From contig JAPYXD010000680.1 in assembly GCA_030998225.1 (NCBI GenBank), positions 7,316,001-7,380,000 of the forward strand: DNA of 64,000 nt, in the 5' to 3' direction. How positions within the stretch are numbered: the stretch's first letter is position 1; each line of letters begins with the position of its first letter. Below the pieces are notes generated by a model. The model did not search any database, had not been told where the DNA came from, and saw nothing but the letters and a program-made list of their open reading frames with translations. This document shows, in pieces, positions 5,833 through 63,080 of this stretch. A program made the position numbers and the translations under genes. This DNA is from Diplolepis rosae (taxonomy: Eukaryota; Arthropoda; Insecta; Hymenoptera; Diplolepididae).

Positions 5833-5875
5833 TTTCAAACGTTTCGACTCACATTGGAGTCCTCATCAGTGAGAG
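5833..5875 (-). ncRNA. hammerhead ribozyme, intact core
   Basis: Minus strand: CTGATGA, G, stem II GACTC-CAATGT-GAGTC, then GAAAC directly followed by GTT. Stem I is short (TCA before the core, TGA after). Helix III is only the self-complementary ACGT, so a closed fold needs two molecules. The catalytic nucleotides CUGAUGA...GAA are all present. Predicted cleavage is after GTT. Activity is inferred, not shown. Confidence 0.7.
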
Positions 5876-5904
5876 TTTATTTTTATAAAAAATACAAAGG
5901 AAGA

Positions 5905-6190
5905 AACTTAAAAATTGCCCATGTGACGGATAAACAATGTGGTAAGAAATTATATAAAGGAATTACAAGTGTGAAAATATAAAATTGGTCTAAACTGAAT
6001 TTGCAAAAAAGTAAAACTGTACAAAAAATTGTTCATGTAAAAATTCTAGGGGGGGGGGGGACTTAAAAACTAGCACAGGTGACGGATAAACATTGTGGTA
6101 AGAACGATATAAATGAATTGTACATGTGAAAACTATAGATTTGGTCTAAACTAAATTTATAAAAAATAAAACTGTACCAAAATGATACTG
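5905..6190. repeat. two-unit tandem duplication
   Basis: Both units share ACTTAAAAA, GTGACGGATAAAC, TGTGGTAAGAA and TTGGTCTAAACT in the same order. A 12-G homopolymer at 6049-6060 separates them. The same unit occurs inverted near 49930-50030. Confidence 0.7.
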
Positions 6191-6503
6191 TGACAATTTG
6201 AGAATGGAGAAATCAAAACACTATTTTTCCGATTTCAAAATTTTGAAGATTCATTTCTCGAAATGTTCAAATATCATATTAAAAAAAAATACGCCTCGAT
6301 TATTTTTAAACATAGAACGCGACAAAACATATTTTATCCGACAAAAAATTTTAGGTTGTAAATTAGGCATAGAATGACCCATATGCCCTACTAAAAAATA
6401 GGTTGAACTGAATATATAAAAATTATGGAAATTACTCTAATACGGCCTGAAATTATGAGCAACCTTTATGATAATTTATTCACCCAAAGGATATGGATTA
6501 GTG

Positions 6504-6710
6504 TCAATTGGATGAGTCTTTTAGTATTTCTTTTACGAGGTCGTATTTTTCAGGATCAAGAAAGGAAGGTTGAAGAGGAGCTTCCGGTTCCATCGGTTTC
6601 TTCCTCGATTTAGGGTAGACATCACCTGGCGATGAGTCAGAGAAGTAAAGTAACTTCCCGAATACACCTGCTGCTTGAACCCGAATCGCGAAGCAGGTTC
6701 CATTCGCCAT
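6504..6710 (-). CDS. small 68-aa protein gene, unrecognised
   Basis: An ATG-initiated frame on the minus strand from 6710 to TGA at 6504 encodes 68 residues, with no transmembrane segment. The N-terminal half is weakly amphipathic with few acids (RVQAAGVFGKLLYF); the C-terminal half is charged (YPKSRKKPMEPEAP, DPEKYDLVKEIL). A TATAAAG box lies about 55 bp upstream of the ATG (6765-6771), and AATAAA lies about 25 bp after the stop, giving a compact intronless gene layout. The DNA is GC-richer than its surroundings, and a CCAAT-type box (CCAATCAGG, minus strand) lies further upstream near 6915. I do not recognise the family. A small nuclear-encoded mitochondrial protein is one possibility; a processed copy or the 3' exon of a larger gene are others. 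Confidence 0.5.
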   Translation of the reverse strand: MANGTCFAIRVQAAGVFGKLLYFSDSSPGDVYPKSRKKPMEPEAPLQPSFLDPEKYDLVKEILKDSSN

Positions 6711-6764
6711 TAGACAGCACGCTTCGCTTTCTTACAACTCGAAGAGACGTGGCAGTTGAACTCT

Positions 6765-6770
6765 CTTTAT

Positions 6771-6771
<1 letters not shown>
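6765..6771 (-). promoter_or_regulatory. TATA box of the small minus-strand gene
   Basis: TATAAAG on the minus strand, about 55 bp before ATG 6710. It directly abuts the TA microsatellite, so part of the match may be chance. Confidence 0.4.

Positions 6772-6773
<2 letters not shown>

Positions 6774-6813
<40 letters not shown>
6774..6813. repeat. (TA)n microsatellite
   Basis: About 20 uninterrupted TA dinucleotides. Confidence 0.95.
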
Positions 6814-6815
<2 letters not shown>

Positions 6816-7319
6816 CACTTGCCGTAAAAAGGGGGACGAGTCTTCCTTTATTGTGTCTGAAACAAGTCCCGGATTCATGGCCCAGCGACTTGTGACATCA
6901 CGGGACACTCCTGATTGGTCTCCTAGATTTTAATTTATTCCCGGGGTTGTGACCGAGTGAAAAAGTGATTCAACGAACTGTTAAGGTTGAGGAATTGAAT
7001 ACTGTTTCATAAAAGTAGTGAATTTTCAACAACTTTTCTCAATGATCAGTGATTTTGTTTCTTTGAATTTCTTTATAATTTTACTGCAATGCAACGAAAA
7101 AACATATGTAAGTGATATTTTGGAGAAAAATGACTTTTTAGTTCCAGTGGAATTATGAGAAAGTTTCGCCAGACATAATTTAAGTCATAATTATTGATAA
7201 TATTCATAATATTTTGACTTGTATCAACCCTTAGTTGATGAATTGTAGATATTTTTACATTCTCATCATATAAGGTATTGGTTTTATGTGAAAAATCACT
7301 TTCCGAATTTTCATCAAAT
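6814..7319. other. GC-richer flank then AT-rich DNA
   Basis: 6814-6960 is GC-rich with TGACATCA and ATTGGT words, plausible promoter elements for the minus-strand gene. Beyond that nothing is recognised. Confidence 0.3.
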
Positions 7320-8310
7320 CTTTACGTTTTTAGACCCCTTGAGTCAGAGTAACGGTTTTTACAAAAGTTTCTGGCTGTCTGTCGTTTTTCCGTTAGTCCA
7401 CCCGGTGTCTGTGGACACAATAACTCTCGATAGAATAATCGGATTCGATTGAAATTTGGCACACCTCTTGAGGGCCCAACAAGAAAGGACGAGTTCGTTA
7501 CCAGCCACATCCGACCGAAATTGTGAAAATAAAATCATTTTTTGCTTTAGACTTCTTTTTTTTTTGGAAAAAACAAGCAATATAATATTGGTTTCTGATA
7601 ATGCTTATGAATCTCTACTAATTAACCTCATGAGATTTTTCGATTAAACAAAAAATAGGAAAGTTACAGTATTTTAAAACTTGAAAAAGTCAATATCTAA
7701 ATTCTATTTCCATAGTTAAATTATAGAAGATACGAAAAAACGTTATGATACAAAATTAGCTACTACAAAAAGATCTACAAATTTGAATCGCATCATTTTT
7801 TATAAGATGTATATATTTTATCTTAAATTTAAAAAATACTATTGAAAAACGAAAATTCAATTTTTTAACCATAATATGTGAAATACAAAAAAAATCTAAG
7901 AATGCAACATTGTTCGCTTCAATAAAGTCTAAGAATTTTGTCTGACACAGTTTCTAATAATATGTATATTTTTCGTTTCAATTTCCAAAAATACGACTGA
8001 AATTCAAAAATTCCATTTCTTAAACAAAATATTTGAGATGCGAAAAAAACGTGATGGGAAATTATTTGCATGAATGAGGTCTGTAAACTCTCATTAGAAG
8101 ATTTCTTCAAAAGAGTTTTGATTTTAAAAAACACTTTCGAAAATTAAAAATTACGTCTTTTAACAAAAATGAGTTTGCGTTTACGATTGTTTTCTCTTTG
8201 AGATATTTGGACGAAAATAAATTATTTTGATCATATAATTTATTATAAAATTACGAAATGTATACAGAAGATGGAGCGTGAATGTCATGATGAGAAACGG
8301 TGCTATTAAA
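7320..8310. repeat. interspersed repeat with ~150-bp internal units (copy 1)
   Basis: A head segment at about 7456-7690 (AACAAGAAAGGACGAG, CAGCCACATCCGACCG) is followed by about four degenerate units of roughly 150 bp. Each contains AAAAGATCTACAAATTTG, ATAAGATGTATATTTT, AAAATACTATTGAAAA, AAATTCAATTTTTTAAC and GAAATACGAAAAAA. Related copies lie at 29460-30000, 33960-34510 (head inverted) and 39590-40030. Non-coding; the unit structure resembles a dispersed satellite-like element. Confidence 0.65.
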
Positions 8311-8436
8311 TTATACTAATTTTTTCCTAGATTCTAAAGAAGTCTAAACTCAAAACAAAAAAGGCGTAAAAATCCAAACTTGCAGAACTATTCATAAAAA
8401 AATACTAAAAATGATTATATTAAATTTTCAAGAAAA

Positions 8437-8472
8437 CGAAAGACCTGGGCTCGAATCCCAGCGCAGTCGAAA
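8437..8472 (+). repeat. tRNA-like T-arm fragment
   Basis: A perfect 5-bp T stem, CTGGG-CTCGAAT-CCCAG, with a 7-base loop, followed by CGCAGTCGA. It is the same tail as the tRNA-like palindrome at 9998-10195. Only the 3' part of a tRNA-like sequence is present, so it is a repeat fragment and not a tRNA gene. Confidence 0.6.
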
Positions 8473-8859
8473 ATCAATCATTTCAGGAATCACTCATAAT
8501 TTAAGAAAAGTTTCGAATTTGGACTTATTTCACAATATCTTTCTCGAAAATTGACAGACACTTCATCCTGAGGTTGTTTTATGCATAATTTTGACGTCTT
8601 CCATATTATTTTCAGAGAAGAACTTCAATATATGTATTTTCAATATCAAGAGATTTTATGCGACTTAAAAACACAAAGTGAGTATAATAAGATGGCCAGG
8701 GACTGTAATAGCTGTCAATTATTAATTCACTGATTTATTGCTCAATATGAAAGAACATATGAGTTTCACGTTTTTCTATTGTACGGAAGAATGATTTGAC
8801 TCATTCTTACACTGGCACACACAAGGGTGACTTTCTTGATATACTATCGGGCTCGAATT

Positions 8860-9123
8860 TCAGGTAGTAAACAAGGTCATTAAATTGAGATGACGAAATT
8901 CATCTGCGTCATATGGACTATGCAAGAGCAGCTGCATAATAGATGATAGCACGTGCCGCAGTTCAACCAAAAGAAGGAAGAAATCTTGGAGGATCAGGTC
9001 AGGTGCGAATAAGTTACATAAAGCAGCTGCATGTCTTGATCCCTCTGAAATTCCGCCCACAAGTCCTTTGTCAACTCTGACTGCTTCACAAAAACGCTTT
9101 CCAGCATATGTGTCACCTGACAC
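8860..9123 (-). CDS. coding-like open frame, possible exon, unrecognised
   Basis: An 87-codon minus-strand frame in GC-richer DNA with protein-like composition (GLVGGISEGSRHAAALCNLF; LILQDFFLLLVELRHVL; HSPYDADEFRHLNLM). It has no ATG near its start, and a plausible splice acceptor (TTACTAG or TGTCAG) sits at its upstream edge, so an internal or terminal exon is more likely than a whole gene. It ends at a TGA just past FTT. The middle looks helical and hydrophobic. I cannot assign a family; a relic of a transposon-encoded protein is equally possible. Confidence 0.35.
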   Translation of the reverse strand: MSGDTYAGKRFCEAVRVDKGLVGGISEGSRHAAALCNLFAPDLILQDFFLLLVELRHVLSSIMQLLLHSPYDADEFRHLNLMTLFTT

Positions 9124-9865: not shown

Positions 9866-10195
9866 GTCGAGTTTGAAATTTTTGCCACTGCTTACATTAT
9901 TGGAGGATCATTAGTCGCGTATCAGATAGGATACGTTGCCAACAGGTGTCCTTGTAGACAATTTCAAATTCTTATTTCGCAATAATGCAAATAAATTTAT
10001 ATTTAAAGAATTTGAAATCGTTCTGTGAAAAAAGAAACGCTTTCGACTGCACCGGGATTCGAGCCCGGGTCTTTCGACTGTTTTAACCTAGCTCAGTTGG
10101 TTAGAGCAGTAGACAGGCAATCGAAAGACCCGGGCTCGAATCCAGGCGCAGTCGAAAGCGTCTCTTTTTCCACAGACAGATTTCAAATTCTTTAC
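9866..10195. repeat. tRNA-like palindromic element
   Basis: Left arm 9998-10080 and right arm 10119-10195 are inverted copies (AAGAATTTGAAATC, CTTTCGACTGC, GAGCCCGGGTCTTTCGA and complements). The centre reads TAGCTCAGTTGGTTAGAGC, a textbook A-box and D-arm with a 4-bp GCTC/GAGC stem. It is followed by a T-arm-like GGGCTCGAATCC B-box. A further part, 9866-9935, matches 41315-41390 inverted. Acceptor and anticodon stems do not fold properly, so this is a tRNA-derived (SINE-like) repeat organised as a fold-back, not a functional tRNA. Confidence 0.65.
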
Positions 10196-16803: not shown

Positions 16804-17280
16804 TTAAAAATACATTAATTCAATTATATTCCTTATATATAATCTTCTTACAGTTGAAGCAATGCCATCTTGATCTAGTAAAACCACACAGAGAAACTTT
16901 TTATAGCAAAATATGTTTTATTTTATAATAATAATTTTAAAAAATATTAGAAATCTAGGGAAAATCGAGGTGCAATGGTAATTATTCCTAGCGGATTGGA
17001 AATTTTTCGCAGTCAAAATACTAAAGATTCGAAAAATGATATGAAACTTTGGTAAGGTTATAGAAAAGTTTGATACAATCTATAGTAAATTATCATATTG
17101 CTTATCTAAAGTTCAGTATTTCGCTGCGATAAATTCTTACTATTACACGTTTTTCTCTGAATTGAAACGTAGTTTAGCAAAAATTGTAAACTTGGGTTTC
17201 TCCGTGCAGATTAAAAAGTAGACAAAATGATTTTCACATTTTTTAGATAATGATTTTAAATTTTAAACAAGTTTGTTGCT

Positions 17281-17516
17281 AATAATTGGCTTTAGGGTGC
17301 AGAAATAATAATTCAGAAGGTTAGATACTTTCAAACGTTTCAACTCTGATCGGAGTCCTCATCAGTGATCTTTATTTCTAAAATATTGGTACAATAAATA
17401 AAATATTACACATATGAGCCCTATTTTGGAGTAAACTTTGGTAATGTAAAAAATTATGAAAACTGTGAGAAAATTTACATAAAATTGTACAGAAAACATC
17501 TAAATATTACTGAATA
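17281..17516 (-). mobile_element. hammerhead-bearing repeat, left part, split by THAP transposon
   Basis: Starts at TTGGCTTTAGGGTGCAGAAA, contains the ribozyme at 17328-17371, then the body (CACATATGAGCCCTATTTTG, GTGAGAAAATTTACATAAAA). The body resumes at 19001 after the THAP transposon (AGATGCAATTACAT...AGTATAAAATTA). A paralogous copy at 45225-45640 is uninterrupted, which shows the join directly. Confidence 0.8.
17328..17371 (-). ncRNA. hammerhead ribozyme, intact core
   Basis: Minus strand: CTGATGA, G, stem II GACTC-CGATCA-GAGTT (closing G-U), GAAAC, GTT. Stem I pairs TCA with TGA only. No helix III loop beyond ACGT. Core nucleotides are all present; the short stem I makes activity uncertain. 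Confidence 0.65.
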
Positions 17517-22735: not shown

Positions 22736-22739
22736 TTAA

Positions 22740-23404
22740 GGTAGTTGATCCACGAAAATTAGACCTTAGGCAAAAATAGATAATTTTGCTTTCAAGACTA
22801 GCAATATTATTATTGAAGGGCTATTTTGGAAAAGAAAAGATTAATTTCCATGAAAAAAATTTGAAATATAGAAAAATAATTTTATTAATAAATTTTATTT
22901 TTGCCCCAACTTTTTTTCTTATCGCTTCTTACCAAATTTTAAAAAATTATGCGATTTTAATAAATTACAAATCAGTTTTTCAAGAAAAAGATTCCCTACA
23001 ACTTAACCATTTCCAATTTTCGAAAATGAATAAACTATTATCAAATTCAGCAATTTGTTTATAAAAATGTCGTTTTGGAAAATTTTTTTAAATGTTTTCA
23101 GCCATTAAAGAATTTATTTTTAAAAATCAGAAACGGTGAAGTTGTGGGAAATCTTTTCTCTGTAAAAATGATTCATGATTTATTAGAATCGCATAATTTT
23201 TTAAAATTTGGTAAGAAGCGATAAGAAAAAAGTTGGGTCAAAAATAAAATTTATTAATAAAATTATTTTTCTGTGTTTCAAATTTTTTTCATGTAAAATA
23301 ATATTTTCTCTTTCAAAATAGCCCTTCAATAATAATATTGCTATTCTTGAAAGCAAAATTATCTATTTTTGCCTGAGGTTTAATTTTCGTGGATGAAAAC
23401 TACC
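22740..23404. mobile_element. TTAA palindrome (665 bp)
   Basis: TTAA at 22736-22739 and 23405-23408. Ends GGTAGTTGATCCACGAAAAT and its complement, then TTAGGCAAAAATAGATAATT. The whole element is a fold-back with arms of about 300 bp around a short centre. There is no protein; its long open frame is a translation of the repeat. Confidence 0.9.
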
Positions 23405-23409
23405 TTAAA

Positions 23410-23796
23410 GATCATATAAAGATTATAAAGGATCATTTCATAACGCAAAATTGGTTAACCTCGACCGTGGTCTCTTTTCCATTCGAATCATTGCACCGCA
23501 CAAAGCACTCACCACACCTTCTTTCGTTTGCTTCATGTTCAAAACAGTCCTCTCACGTGTCTTGAGACTTGTAACACGCGGACTACGCGTGCCTCATGTC
23601 AATCGTTTTCCAAGCAGGGACATTCTCAAAAAATTAAATCTCTTCTTTTGATCTTTCTGCTTCGCACCTTAATTTCTTACCTCTATAGAAAAGGAAGAAA
23701 TCTATTCTACCAGTCTTAGGATTAGTGAGAGGTATTTCACGAGATTTCAACTAATTAAAAGTAGAATAAGTTGTATTGACCCTCAATTTTTATAAA
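23410..23796. other. GC-richer patch, possible exon or promoter
   Basis: 23450-23640 is markedly less AT-rich and contains GTGTGGTGAGTG on the minus strand (possible donor after an ATGAAGCAAACG start). Too short to call. Confidence 0.2.
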
Positions 23797-23880
23797 ATGG
23801 TACGTTGTTGGAAAAAAATGGCTTTAGGGTCCAAAAAAGATTAAGTCGATTTAATCAGACGTTTCGGCTCAGATCTTATA

Positions 23881-24637
23881 AAGGGTTTCCCAATAAGGGT
23901 GATATGTTTTGAAATTGAAAAAAAACACTGAATATTCATTCGGAATTGATCGAAATCTTTTTTATTATATTGGATATTCTATGCCATTTATGATTTAAAC
24001 AATATATCGGCCAAATGTCCCCCGAGACTTGAGCCAAAAATGCGCCTCATCAGAGAAGATGATTTTTTGATGAAAATTGGGATCATTTTCAATTGATTCC
24101 AGAGCCCAATCCGCGAACTCCCGACGCAAACGATGATCATTAGGCTTCAGTTCTTGGGCCAGAATCATCTTATAGGGATGCAGGCCAAGATCCAATCGCA
24201 AAATACGCCAGGTAGTCATCCTGGACAGGCCCAATTCCTGAGATCGGCGTGGCACGGACAATTCACGGTTTTCCTCGATACTGGCGTGTACGGCGGCTAT
24301 ATTCTGTGTAGAACGTGCGGTACGCATACGATTTTTAGGCTTAGTATCCAATAGAGTAAATTCACTCTCCAACTTATCGATTATTCGGCGAATTGAGAGC
24401 GCGGATGGAGCAGAATGACGACCATATTTTGCACGATATGCTCTTTCAACACCGACAAAACTTCTCGAATTTTTATAAAATAATTGGACAATTTCCAAAC
24501 GTTGTGGAAGCGTGAAACTACTCATGATTAAATGGCAAACCTTACTGATGACAACTGACAGCAGACGTCAAAAATTTTAGTTCAAATGAGCCCGATAGGG
24601 ACATTCAAAATCATATCACCCCTATTGGGAAACCCTT
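23881..24637 (-). mobile_element. Tc1/mariner-superfamily transposon, internally deleted
   Basis: Inverted ends of about 28 bp: AAGGGTTTCCCAATAAGGGT on the left and the complement of AAGGGTTTCCCAATAGGGGT on the right, each flanked by TA (23879-23880, 24638-24639). The 757-bp element carries only the N-terminal half of its transposase. Confidence 0.88.
23995..24525 (-). pseudogene. truncated transposase (DUF4817-type HTH, partial DDE)
   Basis: 176 codons from ATG 24525. Residues 1-50 form the helix-turn-helix common in insect Tc1/mariner-like proteins (FTLPQRLEIVQLFYKNSRS, KYGRHSAPSALSIRRIIDKL). Residues about 75-130 hold a second DNA-binding helix region (ENRELSVPRRSQELGLSRMT, WRILRLDLGLHPYKM). 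Residues 155-170 reach the first catalytic Asp (KIIFSDEAHFWL). It ends nine residues later (KSRGTFGRYIV), where about half of the catalytic domain is missing, including the second and third acidic residues. The frame is otherwise open with no stops, which suggests a fairly young deletion derivative. It may still bind DNA but cannot transpose. Confidence 0.88.
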
Positions 24638-24723
24638 TATTATATGTTTAAGTGTTACAGTTATTTCTAAAAATGTGAAATTAGCGCCACCTCTTTTTTT
24701 GTATTTTTTAGATTTTAATAAAT

Positions 24724-24763
24724 ATCACTGATGAGGGCTCCGATCTGAGCCGAAACGTCTGAT
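24724..24763 (+). ncRNA. hammerhead ribozyme, intact core
   Basis: CTGATGA (24728-24734), G, stem II GGCTC (24736-24740)-CGATCT-GAGCC (24747-24751), GAA, ACGTC with cleavage predicted after C24759. Stem I pairs ATCA with TGAT. Every core position matches the hammerhead consensus. Helix III is the palindromic ACGT only, implying a dimer. Confidence 0.8.
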
Positions 24764-24810
24764 TAAGTCGACTTCATCTTTTTTGGACCCGAAAACCAAT
24801 TTTTTCCAAC

Positions 24811-26329
24811 AACGTACTATTTTATTTCAACTAATCTTGCACAGAGAGAAAAATACAATAACGATTCACTGTTATAATACTTCTTCCCATTTAAAGAATA
24901 ACATATTTTATGGGCTATTATCTAAATTATACATAATACAATGCAAATAGTAACAAGTAGATAACAAATGTAAAAATTACCATCTATATATTGTAGTGGT
25001 TACAGTACAAATGGCAATCATTAAAATTCTTATGTACATGTTGAAATGAATTTATTACGTTTGAAAGAAACTATGTTCTGAATAAAGTCGAATTTCTCGA
25101 AAAAACTGTGTTTTTCTTAGTTAGACTGGAAACTTATGGAACTTATTGCACTGTGTACAATAGAGATGGCCAGGGTGACCGTTTTCATCGAAGAAAATAA
25201 TTCACGGTCATTTCCCGGTCATCGAAAATTTTTTCCTGATCATTAGAAAAATAGTTTCCAATGAATAACAGTTAATGCAATGGGTTTTCAAAGTTTTAAA
25301 ATATTTTTTACTTAATATTCTTGAATGAAATTTCTCCTGGTATACCGAAATCATGAAATCATACGAAATGGACAATAAGGCGGGAATTTCGAAATGCATA
25401 ATATAATATATAAGTAAATCACTTTATGTAACACATTTAAAACAAATTAAAATCGTTTTTTATTTAAAATTTTTTAAAAATTCCCGGTCATTTCTCGGTT
25501 TGATGGTAATTTCCCTGAGATGGTAATAACCTGTACAATATTTTATGAGATAAGATAAAATAATAAAATAAACTTTTAAAATACTTTATTTTTCGAATGG
25601 GCATTAGCATCTTGATAATAATCGATAGCATATTTTTTCATATATTATTTTAATATACGTGCAATAGTGTCAAATCCAGAAGACTTAAAATAATTTCATT
25701 TTCGTTTGAACAAAATTGAATAGTGAATATGATAAATGAAGATTCGCCAGCCAAAATGAAACATATCTTTTTGCTATGTATGTAAATTCTGCTGAACAGT
25801 CTATTCAACGATAACCACCAACGGACGTCGTTTTACTTTGACAAAAGCTCTGACTAGAAACTCGACAATCCCCTTGGGGAAAGGAAAATCAACCTTTCCC
25901 AACCATAGATCTACATAATTTACAAAATCATTCACGATTGATGCACGACTATAGAAATTATTTAACTGAAATTGTGTTTAGTTTAACCAAGAGTTTTACT
26001 AAACGCATTTACAACTTTCTTGTCGACAGGGAAACATCCCTCTCCGAATAGATTCCACTTCAGTACTTAAAAAATATTTTTTAACCTAAAGAATCGTGGC
26101 CAGATAAAATGTTATGCAATGCATTTTATTCTATACCAAAAAATTAATTACCCGACATCTTTGTTCAATATTTTTATTTATCCCAATCATTACCTCATGT
26201 AGGTAATTGCTATTTTTACGATTGACTATTCAACGTAATTTGTATTAATCCAAATTTTTATATTGGGTAATTTTTATATTTCTGAATCTCCATTTACCAT
26301 CGTATGTCTTTATTTTAATTTACATTCAA
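24811..26329. other. AT-rich intergenic DNA
   Basis: No supported gene. TTCCCGGTCATTT-type words recur near 25200 and 25480 in a possible diverged repeat. Confidence 0.35.
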
Positions 26330-34510: not shown

Positions 34511-34541
34511 AATGTGTTTCTTAAGGACGACAGAGCCTTAA

Positions 34542-35206
34542 GGTAGTTCGTTCACGAAAATTAGACCTCAGGCAAAAATAGATAATTTTGCTTTCAAGAA
34601 TAGCAATAACATTATTGAAGGTCTAATTTGAAAGAGAAAAGATTATTTCACATGAAAAAAATTTGAAAGACAAAAAAATAATTTTATTAATAAATTTAAT
34701 TTTTTACCCAACTTTTTTTCTTATCGCTTCGAGTCAAATTTTTAAAAATGATACGATTCTAATAAATCACGGTTCATATTTTTAGTAAAAAGATTCTCTA
34801 CAACTTGACCATTTCCAATTTTTGAAAATGAATTCTTTAATGTCTGAGATTATAAAAAAACAATTTTTCAAAACAAAATGTTTATAAACAAATTGCTGTA
34901 TTTGATAATAATTAATTCAATTTCAAAAATAGGAAACGGTCATGTTGTAGAGAATCTTTTTCCTAAAAAAATGAACCGTGATTTATTAGAATCGCATCGT
35001 TTTTAAAAATTTGGCTCGAAGCGATAAGAAAATAAGTTCAGGCAAAAATAAAATTTACAAATAAAATTATTTTTATGTGTTTCAAATTTTTTTCATGAAA
35101 AATAATCTTTTCTCTTTAAAAAGAGCCCTTCAATATTAATATTGCTATTCTTGAAAGCAAAATTATCTATTTTTGCCTGAGGTCTAATTTTCGTGAACGA
35201 TCTACC
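34542..35206. mobile_element. TTAA palindrome (665 bp) with known empty site
   Basis: Ends GGTAGTTCGTTCACGAAAAT / complement, TTAA 34538-34541 and 35207-35210. The flanks CAGAGCC|TTAA|GTAAATTGAATTTCC match an uninterrupted paralogue at 39955-39990 (TAGAGCCTTAAGTAAATTGA), which proves both borders and the TTAA target. Confidence 0.93.
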
Positions 35207-35210
35207 TTAA

Positions 35211-36139
35211 GTAAATTGAATTTCCTTTTTCATTTGAAATAAAGAACAAATTTAGTAACTTGTATGCAAAGAACATAAGAGCGGGTGCGAAGCGGGCAGA
35301 TTTTTCAAATAAAAAGTATGAATTTTACTTATTTTTCCGATTTCTCTTCCACTTTTAAAAGCTTAACATATGATGAACAATTTCTATGAAAGAAGCTCCT
35401 CAAGCATGAAAGAACGCCAAAAAGTTTTTTATTGAAGCATTTTATTAAAGGGGGGTCTTGCAACTTCGACCCAAGTTACCAATTTTAACAGAGCTTGTCC
35501 ACATATTTGTAGAGTAGATTCGCGTAGTTTGTTCGTACGTGAGTGCTGTGAGATCTCTTGCAGTCTTGGAAAAATACGTTAAAATGAAAAGGAAGGAAGG
35601 AATGAAAAAGAAAAGCGAATGAGAAAAGAGAGGCTGGTATTGAGAGAAAAAGAATTCAGTGTATGACTTCTGCGACGATTGAAGCTCATTCCAAAACGTC
35701 AACTCAGATACGGACGACACGACACTTTTTGGGACCAAGATACTGACATCTCTAAGATTAAGAGAGGTGTATCTCAAGAGTGATTTAGAAGGCCGTTATG
35801 AAACATTACAAATGAAGAATTTCTCTTCACTTTAAGTGTATATGACAAGATATTTGACGCGTCAACCTATATATAATACGTGCAATGTCATTCTAGCAAT
35901 AAAAGAAGTTATGAATCAAACTTGAAGAAGAAGGATTAAATGACATTAATGGGTTGGAGATTTTTCACCAAATTGTTACTAAGGACTAGCATCACTTTGG
36001 AAACAAATTTCAAGTCAATTCGAGATTTTCTAGAACAAAAGAATTTATTTTTTCAAAAATCGCCTTCTAAGTGTTTTCGCGATTTTCTCACTGTTTATAA
36101 TTTTAACATTGAATGATAATATTTTTTTATATTTGAAAA
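35211..36139. other. intergenic DNA
   Basis: 35280-35300 holds a GCGAAGCGGGCAGA word also seen at 40110-40260. A purine-rich GC-richer block at 35460-35760 has an open minus-strand frame of 110 codons with no recognisable domain. Confidence 0.3.
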
Positions 36140-40269: not shown

Positions 40270-41224
40270 TGTTTATATAATGACCAATTAGCAGGAAATT
40301 TTCGCTATGGATTAGTTGAATGTTCTTTTTAAATTTTAGTAAGTAAAAATTGAACTGAATTAAAATTAGTTATTCTTTACTGATTTTCAGTAAAGAATGA
40401 CAGAATTCTTAGCCAGGTATGGGTCACTAATTTCAATTTATTCGAATTTTCACTTATTCAGATTTGAAAAGTTACTGAAAATTAGTAAATTTTTTCACTC
40501 ATTGGAAGCAAACGAATTCTTATTAATTCGAAATCTAGAGAGTATACTCTAAATTATAATAAATGAAATATAAGTTAATGATTCAAATCAGTAACAAGTT
40601 TTACTGTTCTGCTAAAACAGTGAGACTGATTCGCCAATTCAATATACCAATGAGACAGTGAAATTCCTTATTGATTCTTTTTCTTTCAAACTTAAATTTA
40701 AAAATCAATGAGAATAAAAATTTTAAATAGAGAATTAATTTAAAAAATCAGGAAGATTATAAAAAGTATTTCTGGGAAACACATTACTTCCCACCACACG
40801 AACACTGTATGCGAACGTGTTACGAGTGCCAACATAACGAATATGCATTGGTGGAATGATAATGCACAAGTGTGTAATTTATAATCAAACGAGCATCTTC
40901 TACTTCATTCACAGAACGTATAGCACAATTTATTGAAGCAACTGACCAGTTTAGAATATGCAAGCTATAAATAAAACTTAAGCTTTAATGTTGAACCTTA
41001 AAATACTCTTTAACTTTTCTTTTGAGTTAGCAAAAATAAAAAATCACATTAAAATTAAAACTATATTAATTTTAGCGAGTTCAAATGATCAATCCTTTTT
41101 TCTATTCCTAAATGTTTATGAGCTTCATAAAAAAATAACATGTTCAATAAATTTTCTAATGAAATTTTAAAATTTTAATTTTCAGCATTGGAACATTTAT
41201 TTGAATGATATAAAAACAATTTGA
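40270..41224. other. AT-rich DNA with degenerate CAGTGA words
   Basis: TCACTAAT, AAAATTAGTAAAT and CAGTGAGAC-type words at 40320-40680 resemble those at 42010-42600 and 62380-62520, possibly an old diverged repeat. No gene seen. Confidence 0.3.
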
Positions 41225-41390
41225 TTTAAATTTAAAGAATTTGAAATCTTTCTGTGGAAAAAAAGACGCTTTCGACTGCGCTGGGATTCGAGCCCAGGTC
41301 TTTCGATTCGTATTCTATCTGATATACGCGACTAGTGATTCTCCAATAATGTAGGCAGTGGCAGAAATTTCAAACTCAACTAATTAATTT
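41225..41390 (-). repeat. tRNA-like repeat, single arm
   Basis: Minus strand: a perfect T-arm CTGGG-CTCGAAT-CCCAG followed by CGCAGTCGAAAGCGTC and TTTCCACAGAAAGATTTC. Upstream is CACTGCCTACATTATTGGAG, shared with 9880-9910. The 5' D-arm half is absent. Confidence 0.6.
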
Positions 41391-44300: not shown

Positions 44301-44606
44301 ACGAATATTCATGAGCACGAAGAGCTACATAGCGGTAACTTCGATGTTTTTTCTTCCCACCTTCTATTCTTGCATCCACGACAATGGCGACTTTTAAGTG
44401 TTTTTATTACAAGTTATGTTTCAATTAAGACTATGTACCAAGTTTGTCACCTAAAATAATTCAAGTTCACTTCCTTTTGACTTCTTGACAAATGTTTCTT
44501 GATGAAATTTTGGAATATGATAAAAAAAACATTCTAAGACAGGTGCAGTTAATTCCGTTTGGCTTGCTTAATTGAAAAAAATTAATTATTGCAATACTGA
44601 ATGAGT
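41391..44606. other. intergenic DNA
   Basis: GC-richer patch at 41760-41900 and short patches near 43440 and 44220-44400 show no convincing frame. Diverged CAGTGA-word repeat at 42010-42600. No RNA genes seen. Confidence 0.3.
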
Positions 44607-44610
44607 TTAA

Positions 44611-45196
44611 GGTTACATTTGGGAAAATTAGACCTTAGGCAAAAATAAATTATTTTGTTTTCAAGAATAGCAATATTATTATTGAAGGAATCATTTAAAA
44701 GAGAAAATATTATTTTCCAAGAAAAAAATTTGAATCACGGAAAAATAATTTTATTAATCAATTTCATTTTTGTCCAAACTTTTTTTATTATTGCTTCGAG
44801 ACAAATTTTTGAAAATTATGCGATTCTAATAAATTACGGATCATTTTTTCAGGGAAAAGATTCTCTACAACTTGACCGTTTTTAATGGTTTCAGCCATTA
44901 AAAAATTTATTTAAAAAAATTGGAAACAGTCAAGTTGTAAAGAATCTTTTTTCAGAAAGAGTGATTCGTGATTTATTAGAATCGCATGAAGTTTGAAAAT
45001 TTGGCTCGAAGCGACAAGAAAAAAAGTTCAAGCAAAAATAAAATTGATTAATAAAATTGTTTTTCTGGTTTTCAAATTTTTCTCTCGAAAAATAATCTTT
45101 CCTATTTTAAGTGATACCTTTAATAATACTATTGCTATTCTTGGAAACAAAATTATCTACTTTTGCCTGAGGCCTAATTTTCGCGTGTGTACTGCC
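44611..45196. mobile_element. TTAA palindrome (586 bp)
   Basis: TTAA 44607-44610 and 45197-45200. Left end GGTTACATTTGGGAAAATTA is mutated relative to the GGTAG consensus. Internal fold-back has a deletion in the centre. Confidence 0.85.
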
Positions 45197-45224
45197 TTAA
45201 GTATTACATTTCATACGATGTTGT

Positions 45225-45640
45225 TGTTAATAATTGTTTTTAGGGTCCAGAAATATAATAATAACTCAGAAAGTTACATACTTTCAAACGTTTCAATTCT
45301 GATCGGAGTCCTATTCAGTGATCTTTATTTCGAAAATATCAAAACAATATTAAAATATTGCACATATGAGCCCTATTTTGGATTAAACTTTGGTAATGTG
45401 AAAAAATGTAAAAACCGTGAGAAAATGTACATAAAATTGTACAGAAAGCATCGATGAAATACCTAAAACTTCCTTAGGAATAACAATAAAATTCTAACAC
45501 ATAACTTCCAGATACCTAAACGAAAAAACGAGTATATATTTGTGTCTAAATGTTACTGAAGATATAGATGCAAGTACATATATAGTATAAAATTATAATA
45601 ATTATGAAAAATAACTAAGAATTGCTAATACGAATTATAC
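45225..45640 (-). mobile_element. hammerhead-bearing repeat, uninterrupted copy
   Basis: Starts GTTTTTAGGGTCCAGAAATA and includes CACATATGAGCCCTATTTTG and GTGAGAAAATGTACATAAAA. It runs through GAAGATATAGATGCAAGT to AATAACTAAGAATTGC. It supplies the empty-site reference for the THAP transposon at 17521-18996. Confidence 0.75.
45290..45332 (-). ncRNA. hammerhead motif, mutated core
   Basis: Minus strand: CTGAATA in place of CTGATGA, stem II GACTC-CGATCA-GAATT weakened, GAAACGTT retained. Probably inactive. Confidence 0.5.
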
Positions 45641-47719: not shown

Positions 47720-48151
47720 ACCAAATCGAAATTCGCGATTTGTACCATTTTTATTTTTTACCTCAAAGCCCAAGGGCACTTTGTCCAAGTGGCAAATTAC
47801 ATGGCAAAAGGCAGAAGAGAAAATTATGCTTAAAATGTGTAATTCACTTTGCATATTCAACTCACTTAAAAATAATAATTTAACGTTTTTCCAGGTTTTA
47901 TTAAATTTATTTCAGATAGTTTTTTTTCTTAATAAATAAATTATTTTCACTTTTAATTTGCAATTTTTCAGATTTGACAGCTTTTCAATTTGGAATTCTG
48001 AAAAATGTAAGCCTTTAAAATTCTGTATGATTGTAAACACAAATAAACATAAAATTCCAAACAAATTTGTATTGAATAAGAGATCTATTCAATAAGAATA
48101 ATCAAGAGACTTAAAAAAATAAATCTCTTATTTTATACGAATAAGATTTAT
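47720..48151. other. AT-rich intergenic DNA
   Basis: No supported feature. Confidence 0.35.
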
Positions 48152-48155
48152 TTAA

Positions 48156-48822
48156 GGTAGGTTTCATCCACGAAAATTAGACTTCAGGCAAAAATAGATA
48201 ATTTTGCTTTCAACAATAGCAATATTATTACTGACGGGCTATTTTAGAATAGAAAAAATTTTTTTACATGAAAAAAATTTGAAACACAGAAAAATAATTT
48301 TATTAATAAATTTTATTTTTTACCCAACTTTTTTTCTTATCGCTTCTTACCAAATTTTAAAAAATTATGCGATTCTGATAAATCATGAATCATTTTTTCA
48401 GAAAAAAGATTTCTCACAACTTCACCGTTTCTGATTTTTAAAAATAAATTCTTTAATGGCTGAAACCATTAAAAAAACATTTTCCAAAACGAAATTTTTA
48501 TGAACAAATTGCTGAATTTGATAATAATTTATTCATTTCCGAAAATTGTAAATGGTTAAGTTATAGGGAACCTATTCCTTGAAAAAGTGATTTGTAATTT
48601 ATTAAAATCGCATAATTTTTTAAAATTTGGTAAGAAGCGATGAGAAAAAAATTTGGGGTAAAAATAAAATTTAATAATAAAATTATTTTTCTGTATTTCA
48701 AATTTTTTTCATCGGAATTAATCTTTTCTCTTCCAAAATAGCCCTTCAATAATAATATTGTTATTCTTGAAAGCAAAATTATCTATTTTTGCCTGAGGTC
48801 TAATTTTCGTGAATCATCTACC
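48156..48822. mobile_element. TTAA palindrome (667 bp)
   Basis: TTAA 48152-48155 and 48823-48826. Ends GGTAGGTTTCATCCACGAAA and complement of GGTAGATGATTCACGAAAAT. Nearly complete fold-back with both arms well preserved. Confidence 0.9.
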
Positions 48823-48834
48823 TTAATATGAATA

Positions 48835-49024: not shown

Positions 49025-49890
49025 GGATTTTTCTCTGAAGGTAATTACAAAAGGTCATCTTCCTCGAAATTCAAGACGTCATCCACACCTGGAAGATGCG
49101 TTTCGAAATTAAATGATCACAACCCAAGATTCCATCATTCTTGAGATTCATCCAACAACCAATAGGCACAGTGAAAAGCACATTTAAGAATTGTCGTTGA
49201 TGCGTTTAAAAGTGTCATCCTATGATACATTGCCATCTGAGTGGAATGAAAGTGCAACAGGCACCTGTGGGCTCGTGAAACTGATTTATGCCAGTGTGAA
49301 TAAATGTTCGCGAAAATGGTATTATCAAAAGTTGTGAATAATAACTGGGTAGGTCGTGTTGCAATGATTATGCCGTCAAGAAAAGTGAGACTAAATCTTC
49401 ACGTTACTTGCACATGCTCATACAAAATTACATATTATAATGGAGTTAAAATAATGGCAATTTACTCCCTTCTGACTCTACAAAAGTCAAACTCTTTTTT
49501 TTCAACAGAGCGATGCTAAATATTATAACATTATTCGATTATTTAAACAGTTATTCGAGTCAGATATGTTTATTTCATTTCTAAATAAAGTTTTACTTGG
49601 CTGAAATAAATATTTATTTAACGCAGATTTGAATTAGATTTAAATTAAATACAATTTGAATCTAGTTATCAGAAAAAGGTTTATTCGGGAATAATTATTG
49701 GGAAATTTTTATTCAGCTAACATATATAAACAAATTTTTCAACAACATTTAAATACATTTTTTCTTTTGGTGTAATTGAATTCTTGTAAGTGTCAAAATA
49801 AGTAAACCTGGTCATTTAGTATAGCCAAAAATTTCGGGTTAGAAAGTTAATTCGATTTATGTCAGGTTTAATTTATAAAAAACTTTATTC
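49025..49890. other. intergenic DNA
   Basis: 49030-49330 is slightly GC-richer without a usable frame. Otherwise AT-rich. Confidence 0.3.
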
Positions 49891-49899
49891 AAAATTTGG

Positions 49900-50150
49900 A
49901 CAAAATATTTTTTATAGAAGCATATATTTTATTCTATAATTATAAATAACTGTTCACAAGTGCAATTCATTTATATCGTTTGTCAACACAATGTTTATCC
50001 GTCACACGTGCAATTTTTTATTCTTTTCTTTCTTTGTATTTTTATAGAAATAAATCTCACTGATGAGGACTCCAATCTGAGTCGAAACGTTTGAGGAAAA
50101 AATGAAACCCTGAGTTTACATTATTTCTAGACCCTAAAGCCAAAGTAAAA
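49900..50150 (+). mobile_element. hammerhead-bearing repeat
   Basis: Inverted relative to the 5.8-kb copy: ACACAATGTTTATCCGTCAC, TTTCTTTGTATTTTTATAGA, ribozyme, then TTCTAGACCCTAAAGCCA at 50125-50142. Only one internal unit is present, unlike the duplicated 5905-6190 arrangement. Confidence 0.75.
50055..50096 (+). ncRNA. hammerhead ribozyme, intact core, covarying stems
   Basis: CTGATGA 50060-50066, G, stem II GACTC (50068-50072)-CAATCT-GAGTC (50079-50083), GAA, ACGTT with cleavage predicted after T50091. Stem I TCTCA/TGAGG makes four Watson-Crick pairs plus one G-U. Compared with 24724-24763 and 62926-62967, both stem I (AATCA/TGATT) and stem II (GGCTC/GAGCC) differ by compensating changes. 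This is the strongest evidence that the fold is or was selected. Confidence 0.8.
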
Positions 50151-50200
50151 AATCATCTATCTATTAATTTTATTCTATATTTATAATTTTGAAAAATACA

Positions 50201-52910: not shown

Positions 52911-53184
52911 ACACAAGAAAATTCTTAAGAATTAATATTGAACACAGACACATAAATTTTGAGATAAATTCAAATTTTAAAGAATTATAAAATAAAACAT
53001 ATATTTTGCTATAAAAATTTTTCCTATTGTATTTAGAGTTGAGATTGGAAGGAAAAAAATTGAAGGATATGCTCAAGATATTCATATTTTGGACTTTTAT
53101 TAACCCTTAATTAATAATTGAAGATATATGATGATGTTGATAGTTGGTTTTAGAATCCAAGGTCAATGAAAAACCTCAAGTTTT

Positions 53185-53230
53185 ACGAAATAAAACGTTT
53201 TGGCTCTGATCAGAACCCTTATCATTGATT
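53185..53230 (-). ncRNA. hammerhead motif, degenerate
   Basis: Minus strand: core ATGATAA, GGGTTCTGATCAGAGCC stem II region, CAAAACGTTTT. Several core bases changed; inactive. Confidence 0.4.
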
Positions 53231-53649
53231 TAATTTGAATCTAAAAAATATATATGAAACAATTTTGCTATATCTCAGGGATTCTTTGCTAAAGAATTGT
53301 AGAATTTACGTTTTACATATGAAATGATAAAAAATTAAAATTGCTTCAGAATAAAATACTTTGAAACAAGAAATTGGACGAATTTGGAAAAATGTTTTGT
53401 CTCGATAAAAACTAAAAATATTTGTTTAAATAAGTAAGTGTAAAATTCTACCTAGTTTTATGCACGAAATTATAAATCAAAATTACTTTGGGATATAGAA
53501 GAATTTGGCGTGCATTTTGTGTTTTCGTGCATTTCGAAGCAATTTTAAATTTTCATCGGCTCATATGTAAAAGCGTAAATTCTAACATTCTCCGTCAAAG
53601 AAACCCTGAGTTAGCAAAATTGTTTTATGTATTTTGTTATATTCAAAAT

Positions 53650-53692
53650 AAATCACTAATGAGGGCTCCGGTTAGAACCAAAACGTCTGATT
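53650..53692 (+). ncRNA. hammerhead motif, degenerate
   Basis: CTAATGA (G5 changed), GGCTCCGGTTAGAACC, AAAACGTC (G12 changed). Stem I AATCA/TGATT still perfect. Confidence 0.45.
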
Positions 53693-53774
53693 ACGTAAAA
53701 CTTGAAATTTTTTTAATAACCTTCGACCTTAAAACCAACTATCAACATCAACATATATCTTCAATTATAAGACT

Positions 53775-54948: not shown

Positions 54949-54990
54949 AATCATTGATGAAGGCTCCGATTAGAGCCGAAATGTCTGATT
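54949..54990 (+). ncRNA. hammerhead motif, C3 mutated
   Basis: AATCA then TTGATGA (C3 to T), AGGCTC-CGATTA-GAGCC, GAAATGTC, TGATT. Stems fully paired; core C3 and C15.2 changed, so probably inactive. Confidence 0.5.
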
Positions 54991-55041: not shown

Positions 55042-55085
55042 ATGGTACTGAAGAGGGCCCTCATATGTGGCCGAAACGTTTTCCT
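55042..55085 (+). ncRNA. hammerhead-like motif, second type
   Basis: CTGAAGA, GGGCCC-TCATATGT-GGCC, GAAACGTT. Core differs only at position 7, which tolerates change in hammerheads, but stem I is nearly unpaired here (GTA/TTC). Confidence 0.45.
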
Positions 55086-55299
55086 TCCTTTTTTACCTTT
55101 TTTACCTTTTTTACGATTTATTATAGCTATCATTGATCATTTTTAAATGAAGAAAATAAGAAGAAACTGACCCTATGCCAAAACAATAACAAATTAATAA
55201 AATTAATATTTTTATTAACCTTAGACCCTAAAGCCAACTATCAACATCAACATATATCATCAATTATTTGTTATGGGCCAATACAAGTCCAGAATATAC

Positions 55300-60164: not shown

Positions 60165-60296
60165 AGACAATTGATTGCGAAAGCAAACTATAAACGTTGA
60201 CTATAAATTAAGAAAGTGCAAGTTGTTCATGAAGCATTTTTCGGAGCATGAATATTTAATTCGTGCAACTTGAGACAATTTATCACTTCGGAGTAA

Positions 60297-60596
60297 AAAA
60301 AGAGAATTGACAATAGACTGTGCAGTACGATTGTCGGTTCTACTTGTTCATCGATTACGTATTCTTCTCACAACCGACCCTTTCAGCATCCACGGGAGGA
60401 TTTTATCCAAAGAAACAAGTTTACCAACCGTGGAAGCATCGAAGGAAGATGCGTCGTACGTGCTAATGAAGGCACCGTGAAACAGGAAATCAGTGAAGTG
60501 GAAAGTAGTCACTCCAGACAGGACTTCCGGTTCAGAGATCCTACATTACATTGTCTTTCAATCATTTCAATTTCGCACAAAATCTCTGCTTAAACG
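60297..60596 (+). other. open frame without ATG downstream of the GPCR
   Basis: About 100 codons open from a TAA at 60294 to TAA near 60594, GC-richer than the flanks, protein-like in the middle (DFIQRNKFTNRGSIEGRCVV; NEGTVKQEISEVESSHSRQD). It has no ATG in frame and no recognised domain. It may be a chance frame, a distal 3' UTR or an exon of another gene. Confidence 0.2.
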
Positions 60597-60599
60597 GTA

Positions 60600-61170
60600 G
60601 TAATACCAAATTCTTATTGAAAGAGACTATATGTTAGGAATAAAATAATTTATAATTCGCTATAATTTAATTATAGCCTTAATTTATCATAATTATGAAA
60701 AATGTAATTGTTCTATCAGTGAAATTAGTAAATGACAATAACAGAACCTTTTCTGTTCAAATTTGCGAATAAAAAATTCCGAGAATTTTTGTTCAATCAT
60801 GTGTATGGATTCTACGTGCTTCAATAAGGTGTGACGTTTCGTAAAAACAGAATAAAGAGAGCACGTAGTAGATTACAGGCACATGAAATCTTCTTAGAAT
60901 ATAAAAATAATGCCTCAGAAAGATTGAATAAAAATATCTCATCTGTTTTTTTTGTCTATAAAATTTATGGATTGTTTACAATGATTTTCAGGAAACATAA
61001 GATAAACTCAGAGCTAAATTTGAAAATTGACCATTTGCCAAATTCCGATTCTACTTTATCTTCAATATTTCAAATCCATGAGATATTTTTATATATAATT
61101 ATTCTAAGATTTAATTTAACTATTAAAAATCAAAATGTTTTATAAAATAATGTAAAATGTTGTTATACTT
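60600..61170. other. AT-rich intergenic DNA
   Basis: No supported feature; a 104-codon frame from 60831 is compositionally spurious. Confidence 0.35.
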
Positions 61171-61375
61171 AATATACATATTCTGGACTTGTATTAACCC
61201 TTAATTCAAAGAAACTCAATATTAGCAAAATTGTTTTATGTATTTTTTAGATTCCGAATAAATCACTTATGAGGGTTCAAATCAGAGACAAAACGTCTGA
61301 TTACGTAAAGCTTCAAGTTTTTTTTATCAATCTTGGACCCTAAAGCCAATTATCAACATCAACATGTATCTTCAA
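61171..61375 (+). mobile_element. hammerhead-bearing repeat, collapsed copy
   Basis: Begins ATTCTGGACTTGTATTAACC (the inverted end sequence). It jumps directly into the AGCAAAATTGTTTTATGTAT lead, then the ribozyme region and GGACCCTAAAGCCAATTATC to CATCAACATGTATCTTC. Most of one arm is missing. Confidence 0.7.
61261..61302 (+). ncRNA. hammerhead motif, degenerate
   Basis: AATCA, CTTATGA, GGGTTC-AAATCA-GAGAC, AAAACGTC, TGATT. Stem I is perfect but G5 and G12 are changed; inactive. Confidence 0.45.
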
Positions 61376-61563
61376 TACTTAATATATTAAATAATTAGAA
61401 GTGAAAGTTGTATTGACCTTCAAATTGAAATAAAAACTGGTAGTTGTTGGAAAAAATTGGCTTTTATTGCGGAATTCACATTTTCTGCAAAATATTTTTA
61501 TAACCATATAGAAGACTATTAGGCATTTTCACTTTCATAAACAGATAACTTCACTGCGTTGAG

Positions 61564-61893
61564 CACTGAGGGAATTGATTTCATTGGAAATATAGAGGCA
61601 GGGATCTTATTTTGCATTTATTGCAATAAAGAAGCGTTTTTTGAGGAAATTTTACTGGTGAAAATATGTTTTATTACACAAAAGAAGTTGAACTAAACAA
61701 TAAATTTGACTAATTATGACAAATTTTTTTATTTCAATAATTTTATTATTCAGTTTAATTCCTTTTGCATAATAAAACATATTTTCAACAGTAAAATTTT
61801 ATAAATAAATGTTTCTTTATTTTAATAAATGAAAAATAAGATCCCTTTTTGTACATTCCCATTTCTAGTGAAAACAATTTCATTCTCTCAGTG
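61564..61893. mobile_element. CACTGAG-type MITE (330 bp)
   Basis: Left CACTGAGGGAATTGATTTCA, right (reversed) CACTGAGAGAATGAAATTGT. Inner inverted pairs are GGGATCTTATTTTGCATTTA and GAAAATATGTTTTATTA. No clear TA duplication at the borders. Confidence 0.7.
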
Positions 61894-61894
61894 T

Positions 61895-62875
61895 TCGACG
61901 AGTTGAAGTTAGCTGCTAATGAAGTGAAAATAACTAATTAGATTTTTATCTTCAACAAATAATGGATATACATCGTTATAGCACCGATATAATTATATTT
62001 ACTCTTATACAAAGAAATCAAGATCAAGCATAATATTAATTTCAGTAAAATGGGGAATTTATTCAATTTGAATATAAAATATAACTTTACTAAATTAATA
62101 TTGATTAAGAGATTACTATAAAATTACGTTAAAATCCACCATAGAATACTTCTTTTTCGCGTTTTTTACGCTTTTATTAAAAAATTTCCTATCTAATGTA
62201 AATCCAAAATGTTAACTCATTTCAAAATTCTTTTATATACCAAAGAAATTTCGATGTACAATTTCGGGCACAAAGCTAGGCAGGATTTTATGCTTTTTTC
62301 TCAAAGTAATTAATTCAAAAGCAATGTTATCTCTAAAACATTTTTTATACTAAGGAAATATTTAGTAGAGTACTCTGAAGTTTTAAATCAGTGAGTATTG
62401 GTTTTTTGCTGATTGTCGCTAGAAATCGTTACTGATTTCATTCAGTGACCCATTTCCAGCTATTGGAATCGGTGAGGTTTCACTGGTTGTCAGTAATATT
62501 TCACTGTTTAACGGTAAAAAATCTTTACTATTTCCGTTTAATTTATACCGAAATAATTTTTATATTTTTCCAAATTTCTACTTTATTCCAAAAAAATTTC
62601 AATCTACAATTTCATGCACAAATTTCAATTAATTAAAAAAAATTCTATGCTTGGATATTTAATCCAAAACTGTTAGCTTCTTCAAGTTGTTTAAGTATTA
62701 ATTCTGAAGCAATGTCATTTTGAATTTGTTATAATACCAAAGAAATATTTACTGACACATATTTAAGAAAGAATTGTTAATTTTCTTCCAACTTCTTTTT
62801 CAAAAATATTTTTCTGTTATTCAAAGATTTGTGTTATGTGAAAGAAATGTTAATTACTTAAAATTTTTTTATGAA
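61895..62875. other. AT-rich intergenic DNA
   Basis: Degenerate CAGTGA/TCACTG words at 62380-62520 as at 40320 and 42010. No gene. Confidence 0.3.
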
Positions 62876-62879
62876 AGAA

Positions 62880-63080
62880 ATACTATGTTAGCAACCTTTT
62901 TTCTGTATTTTTTAGATTAAAAATAAATCACTGATGAGGTCTCCGTTTAGAGCCGAAACGTCTGATTATGTAAAACTTTGAGTTTTTATTAACCTTGGAC
63001 TCTAAAGCCAACTATCAACATCAATATATATCTTCAATTAATAATTAAGGGCCAATACAAGTCCAGAATATGAATATTAA
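62880..63080 (+). mobile_element. hammerhead-bearing repeat
   Basis: GTATTTTTTAGATTAAAAAT, ribozyme, TTAACCTTGGACTCTAAAGC, CAACATCAATATATATCTTC, ending GGGCCAATACAAGTCCAGAA at about 63050-63072. Best-preserved right half of the family. Confidence 0.75.
62926..62967 (+). ncRNA. hammerhead ribozyme, intact core
   Basis: Stem I AATCA (62926-62930)/TGATT (62963-62967) is fully paired. CTGATGA 62931-62937, stem II GGTCTC-CGTTTA-GAGCC with one bulge or mismatch, GAAAC, GTC with cleavage predicted after C62962. Helix III is ACGT only. Confidence 0.8.

Follow-up and report, generated by a model that had tools for sequence, protein, structure and literature searches.

Minimal hammerhead motifs at the ends of Penelope-like elements in Diplolepis rosae, and a one-tail rule for head-to-head insertions

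Scattered over a 64,000-nucleotide stretch of the Diplolepis rosae genome (GenBank assembly GCA_030998225.1, contig JAPYXD010000680.1, positions 7,316,001 to 7,380,000; hereafter the window, numbered from its first letter) are copies of a short motif with the layout of a hammerhead ribozyme lacking a closed helix III. The question raised by this locus is what kind of element carries such a motif, and what the motif does there. Very probably the copies represent minimal type I hammerheads that reside in the pseudo-long terminal repeats (pLTRs) of an abundant, recently active Penelope-like element (PLE) with several subfamilies, for which sequence comparison suggests priming at both target ends and cutting by dimers. 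The less expected result, new here, is that head-to-head pairs of these elements carry exactly one tail, a stretch of ~35 nt at one of the two outer ends; the rule is strict in a fresh set of insertions.

Hammerhead motifs in the window and in the genome

The observation of a hammerhead-like motif in the window is confirmed. The pattern CTGATGA-N(4-30)-GAAAC occurs five times against 0.21 expected from dinucleotide shuffles, and none of 100 shuffles reached five. A 42-nt query allowed up to 14 mismatches returned exactly ten copies, five intact and five decayed, and had no match in five first-order random sequences. Both scans agree with the number and places of the intact and decayed copies in an earlier, sequence-only reading of this DNA, and the GTC or GTT that it described directly after GAAAC is found in all five intact copies. 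The layout is fixed: CTGATGA, one base, a 5-bp stem II, GAAAC, GT, C or T, and a strand able to pair with whatever precedes CTGATGA. Numbered as a hammerhead, the order is that of type I, with A15.1-C15.2-G16.2-U16.1 contiguous, so that helix III has no loop and could form only between two motifs. ACGT is contiguous in 37 of 39 aligned rows, the remaining two having ATGT and ACAT, and the single unpaired base between A9 and stem II is G in 38 of the 39. None of the ten window copies can close helix III, as the sequence-only reading had it for this family, and cleavage by dimers would follow from this anatomy.

A covariance model built from 30 rows outside the window recovers all ten copies, with E-values from 2.2e-18 to 5.7e-7. 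The 30 rows were collected through the core motif, so these values show membership of the family and not activity. The intact copies lie at 50055-50096 (+ strand; core 50060-50088; E-value 2.2e-18), with core and both stems intact, in an untailed subfamily A end at 49884-50174; at 62926-62967 (+; core 62931-62959; 4.1e-14), in a tailed subfamily C end at 62848-63086; at 24723-24764 (+; core 24728-24756; 1.6e-17), in the untailed right arm of a head-to-head insertion; at 17329-17370 (-; core 17337-17365; 4.6e-16), in a subfamily E-like end at 17259-17506; and at 5833-5874 (-; core 5841-5869; 1.8e-14), in a subfamily D-like end at 5763-6155. Decayed copies are found at 45282-45323 (-; E-like; 1.1e-10), 53189-53230 (-; 5.7e-7), 53651-53692 (+; 4.6e-10), 54949-54990 (+; 5.5e-13; ATGT replacing ACGT, in a split PLE copy that resumes at 55209) and 61261-61302 (+; 7.7e-10). 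The same model gives three weaker matches, at 3620 (-), 55040 (+) and 23847 (-).

A 30-nt core pattern was matched exactly at 3189 places in the whole genome (758 Mb in 428 contigs), and its reversed control at none; scans of viral and prokaryote contigs for the core gave 0 matches. Counts of neighbours and of stem II pairs given below rest on the first 100 of these 3189 places. Ten subfamily representatives are divergent outside the motif, where identity over two measured outer stretches is 45-49%; the 100% identity of their cores is partly by construction, since the loci were picked by the core pattern.

Stems, folding and the evidence against a ribozyme

The stem I and 5-bp stem II described in the sequence-only reading are present, but their quality is uneven. 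Judged by alignment rows, stem I has 5 bp at 50055 (one of them G-U) and at 62926, 4 bp at 24723 (with an outer U-U) and 3 continuous bp each at 17329 and 5833. The 5 bp of stem II are kept in the intact window copies, except that 62926 has a U-C mismatch and 17337 a G-U; the copies with both stems well formed are 50055 and 24723 alone. Across the 39-row alignment 88.7% of stem cells are paired. None of the 500 shuffles and none of the slid versions reaches the alignment in covariation score or in the number of cells with changes on both sides. The rows are related and the covariation counts include kin, so this is support for the stems and no proof. At the one stem II pair that the search pattern leaves free, A-U was found at 50 places, G-C at 46, G-U at one and a non-pairing combination at three.

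Several observations weigh against an active hammerhead. Pairs with a change on both sides (3) are not above shuffles, being equalled or exceeded in 359 of 500, and neither are further pair types (10; 498 of 500); alignments slid by +1 and +2 even give more double-change pairs (5 and 4) than the true register (3). In subfamily E stem I has just 3 bp. The minimum-energy fold of single motifs pairs the core GAUG with CGUC or CGUU, an inactive hairpin that, for the six motifs folded, is more stable than the hammerhead fold by 0.8-4.2 kcal/mol, and the RNAalifold consensus likewise favours this pairing. The Rfam hammerhead families had no match in the window even at E-values up to 10, and none above the gathering cut-off. 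Rfam hammerhead models expect a helix III, and for this reason the miss is not taken as a refutation. The covariance-model search proposed with the sequence-only reading was divided in outcome, negative for the Rfam models and positive for the model made from non-window copies. Finally, in a PLE of the anole, hammerhead mutants left insertion in vitro unaltered, and no RNA-seq reads start or end at the cleavage site (PMC11167929).

An alternative reading of the conserved stretch is a hairpin that serves protein binding or packaging, without ribozyme activity. The best single-strand fold of the stretch is indeed one long hairpin that buries the core bases, and the adjoining box GGACCCTAAAGCCAA is also conserved, at 93% across the ten subfamily representatives. 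However, the match to the hammerhead core is complete, including U16.1 and C or U at position 17 in 39 of 39 rows, two positions that lie outside the genome search pattern. Minimal PLE hammerheads (Cervera and de la Pena 2014; Lunse et al. 2017) are also reported to cleave as dimers. Moreover, the anole ribozyme cleaves together with its protein, which it needed (PMC11167929). A hairpin of this kind is considered unlikely.

A Penelope-like source element

The motif copies that were followed up are located in the pLTRs of PLEs. At locus L049, direct pLTRs of 734 bp, 99.5% identical and with one hammerhead each, enclose an open frame of 847 aa that matches RVT_1 above the cut-off (E-value 3.8e-9). 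GIY-YIG is below the cut-off in this protein (residues 741-775, E-value 0.034) and reaches 1.2e-6 in its closest relative, P0001, which is 46% identical over the full length. Relatives named among the best 120 of 208 matches include ants, a sand fly, a weevil and a coral, which together with mariner-like transposase remnants suggest an insect host; a sequence search of the PDB gave 0 matches. Copies of subfamilies E and C that bear the open reading frame (ORF) extend through the hammerhead region, and the motif lies wholly upstream of the ORF in L049 and in L043.

The proposed link to PLEs is borne out by L049, where pLTRs with the motif flank a reverse transcriptase frame. The suggestion of a non-autonomous, Penelope- or retrozyme-like repeat survives in part: short deletion derivatives exist, but source elements of the L049 type are autonomous, and no tandem arrays were seen among the first 100 places. 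The sequence-only reading had also seen no reverse transcriptase in the window, and tblastn with three element proteins found no match in it at an E-value of 0.01 (best 2.1), while the same proteins do match the fetched loci. The copies in the window are ends of PLEs, two head-to-head pairs among them.

Head-to-head insertions and the one-tail rule

Neighbouring motifs within 10 kb of each other are head to head, with the hammerheads facing outward, in 22 of 25 cases (p 6e-11 against an expectation of one quarter); the other orientations, ++, -- and +-, occur once each, and the lone ++ pair is the pLTR-ORF-pLTR element L049. The inverted arms measure 205-4089 bp, and many are 97-100% alike. 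Element ends cluster at two points after the cleavage site, ~61-86 nt (untailed) and 104-125 nt (tailed; the query used for end points itself stopped at 125 nt), and the difference between the two end types is the Penelope tail. The motif thus lies just upstream of both end points.

Exactly one tail was found in 18 of 23 pairs of an exploratory set. Among the exceptions, L042 has no tail and one end cut further in, both ends of L034 run into similar AT-rich flank, and both ends are tailed in L045 and in the second pair of L032. In L043 the right copy continues into the ORF and is thus not an end. It was also noticed that L032:4209-8017 and L045:549-7922 lie inside a larger palindrome that reaches more than 500 bp into flanking sequence similar in both loci.

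The fresh set consisted of neighbours within 10 kb in the genome list of subfamily C copies, leaving out L038, L039, L040 and L043 (already fetched) and C28:892276 and C58:4269435 (where the left copy enters the ORF); at C58:2519764 and C94:1841066 the outermost copy was taken. In these young pairs exactly one end was tailed in 19 of 19 (left in 8, right in 11). A direct repeat of 11-18 nt, a length to which bases that also belong to the element ends may contribute, abuts both ends in 14 of 15 exploratory pairs. An exact repeat of at least 12 nt was found at both ends in 17 of the 19 fresh pairs, 16 by script and one, L089/L090 in AT-rich flank, by eye; in L095/L096 and L109/L110 it was looked for and not found. 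Insertion targets are AT-rich by eye.

Both head-to-head pairs of the first family in the window fit the rule. The first (23753-24825) is a single insertion at 23744-24835, with the 12-nt direct repeat ATTTCAACTAAT at 23744-23755 and 24824-24835, a tailed left arm with a partial hammerhead (match 23753-23875) and an untailed right arm bearing the copy at 24723. The second is palindromic (53078-53768; inverted identity 72% over 722 nt), with the decayed copies at 53189 and 53651 in its tailed left and untailed right arms; a clear direct repeat was looked for at its ends and none was found. Most of the space between the arms of the first insertion is occupied by a 190-aa frame with DUF4817 (transposase-like; 23998-24567, -), either captured DNA or a later insertion.

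In elements with a clear long copy, the tail is on the short arm in L036, L038, L041 and L047 and on the long copy in L046, and no rule for which arm bears it was found in these five. Differences between the arms of a pair are mostly private, which means that one source sequence gave rise to both arms, although one RNA and two sister RNAs are indistinguishable on this basis. In the literature searched, mostly without subscription papers, no published statement was found that every head-to-head insertion has exactly one tail.

Self-priming, or snap-back copying, has been proposed for head-to-head copies of rotifer Penelope (PMC3846280). Near-identical arms with mostly private differences, pointing to one source sequence, are what it would give. 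By our own reasoning, however, copying of one arm should yield equal outer end points, and the fresh pairs are one-tailed without exception; snap-back is regarded as quite improbable here. In the anole PLE, reverse transcription has two internal start sites, separated by 30-40 nt, and both strands are cut and extended (PMC11167929). Insertions that combine the two kinds of start are compatible with a priming event at either end of the target. The one-tail rule argues for separate priming at both target ends and against simple snap-back copying.

The mechanism suggested by these comparisons would run as follows. The element protein would make a staggered cut in AT-rich DNA, and each target end would prime its own round of reverse transcription, the two rounds using different start sites ~35 nt apart. 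The resulting cDNAs would differ in where they are truncated and would be joined 5' to 5'. The hammerhead would cut when two copies pair through ACGU, whether these sit in both pLTRs of a single transcript or in separate RNAs. A more speculative scheme, to which only a low probability is given, adds a dimeric complex with two template RNAs, one per target end and with different starts, which would produce one-tailed head-to-head copies; the open helix III would pair the templates, and dimer cleavage would occasionally trim one of them, giving inner ends at the cleavage site.

The cleavage site and the role of the hammerhead

Breakpoints offer a way to see whether cleavage leaves a footprint. 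Counting only ORF-bearing copies whose alignment begins after the first query base, none of nine in subfamily E and one of 19 in subfamily C start at most 2 nt from the cleavage site. Not all starts count as independent breaks, some being variants common to several copies (a flank is shared by two that start at 102), and starts recur near the junction of tail and ORF, at 382-384 in three E copies and at 302, 302 and 311 in three C copies. As the starts are scattered, cleavage is not the usual maker of insertion ends. Its limited role is in line with the anole data, and cleavage probably trims or separates unit transcripts and would not be the usual source of insertion 5' ends.

Among 73 sampled C arms, the fetched part of the exact places, 34 reach the end of the stretch, 13 share a derivative junction at -48, and 26 stop elsewhere over 200 nt, at least two of the latter sharing a flank (L142, L143). 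One scattered stop, C55:1152747, is exactly at the predicted cleavage site. Another, at C89:1256021-1256200 (L091, L114), is a 16-nt tandem duplication that begins with the base immediately following the predicted site, which looks as though the enzyme had run off a cleaved RNA and then resumed on another. With the second-family copy at ~3631-3663 described below, three inner ends fall on the cleavage site or no more than 1 nt from it; noticed post hoc, they may hint at occasional cleavage in vivo and are suggestive only. The genome count fell from 1095 to 974 when the pattern was extended 8 nt upstream, a drop for which there are no control offsets to give it a scale.

The derivative junction belongs to C2, in which a stretch from 3' of the ORF in element C is joined 48 nt upstream of the cleavage site, and which occurs in small palindromic insertions (L134, L137, L151, L040). 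Such a join of 3' sequence to the hammerhead end, recurring in the sampled arms, is what might be expected of a non-autonomous retrozyme, whose ~300-nt tandem repeats would make circular RNAs through their hammerheads, to be copied by the PLE reverse transcriptase. However, tandem arrays of this kind were looked for among the 100 places and none were seen, close neighbours are overwhelmingly head to head, and the ORF-bearing E and C copies run through the hammerhead region; a retrozyme is thus held to be very unlikely. A DNA transposon or fold-back miniature inverted-repeat transposable element with the motif in its terminal inverted repeats by chance would account for the long, similar inverted arms and the flanking direct repeats, but is extremely unlikely given arm lengths that are free to vary, the one longer, tailed end of every fresh pair, reverse transcriptase ORFs or pieces of them in several elements, and truncation at many inner points. 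The PLE with minimal hammerheads in its pLTRs remains the best explanation.

A second hammerhead family and other repeats in the window

A second minimal-hammerhead family, CTGAAGA...GAAACGTT, was overlooked in the sequence-only reading and has two copies in the window. Its anatomy comprises the CTGAAGA core (N7=A), stem I GGCA/TGCC, stem II GGCC/GGCC, ACGT and a downstream box, TGACCCTATGCCAAA, similar by eye to that of the first family. The copy at 55048-55080 (+; core 55048-55077), intact in its core, lies inside the split PLE copy 54949/55209. The decayed one (CTGAAAA; ~3631-3663, -) lies in an inverted arm, the upstream one, that ends on its inner side no more than 1 nt from the predicted cleavage site, and the pair at ~3.5-3.8 kb to which it belongs, read by eye, fits the one-tail rule. 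Outside the window the family was seen in fetched loci L002, L030 (three copies) and L043.

Other repeats share the window. A separate hairpin-forming inverted-repeat family with arms of ~300 bp is present at 22736-23409, 34537-35211, 44605-45201, 48151-48826 and other places. The repeat at 9988-10139 and 41217-41306, possibly a short interspersed nuclear element, includes a tRNA-like part that scores 21.4 bits with Rfam tRNA, below the cut-off; a similar stretch flanks PLE copy L053. A broken mariner-like element occupies 248-1554, with Transposase_1 at 1108-1551 and a 60-nt stretch duplicated at 561 and 697.

Comparison with known systems

According to two reviews, the minimal type I hammerheads found in PLEs lack helix III, number in the thousands as dispersed copies and perhaps act as dimers, with an unsettled role (PMC7761336, PMC6155905). 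As there described, they share with the motifs of D. rosae the type I order, a short self-complementary stretch as the only trace of helix III, copy numbers in the thousands and, for some, a place in PLE pLTRs; set apart by descriptions only, the present motifs differ in the one unpaired base after A9, nearly always G, and in having their own sequences and subfamilies. With thousands of copies, the role of the PLE hammerhead becomes a counting problem of insertion ends, tails and breakpoints at the cleavage site, and a strict one-tail rule, if it holds more widely, would be a constraint on any model of PLE integration.

The Poseidon PLE of Anolis carolinensis, PAc, likewise has an ORF with reverse transcriptase, pLTRs, two starts that define the tail, and AT-rich targets; its ORF also has GIY-YIG, a domain below the cut-off in L049 (PMC11167929). 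By our own sum from that paper, its hammerhead cut site lies ~85-92 nt before the main start of reverse transcription, as here. However, the PAc hammerhead overlaps the start of the ORF, and its choice of start site is equal on both strands in vitro (PMC11167929), whereas here the motif stands wholly before the ORF in L049 and L043 and each fresh pair has one end of each kind. In Adineta vaga, Penelope families also have inverted pLTRs, a usual head-to-head arrangement, unrelated DNA captured between the pLTRs and short target-site duplications (8-10 bp there, repeats of 11-18 nt here), with a tail that is optional on one of the inverted pLTRs; copy numbers there are low (PMC3846280), compared with thousands of copies here. 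Metazoan non-LTR retrozymes share type I hammerheads, some of which need dimers, but are described as tandem repeats with circular RNAs (PMC7229834), unlike the copies in the 100 places listed here. PLE-borne minimal hammerheads are of an already known kind, and the one-tail pairing rule is the new element that D. rosae adds.

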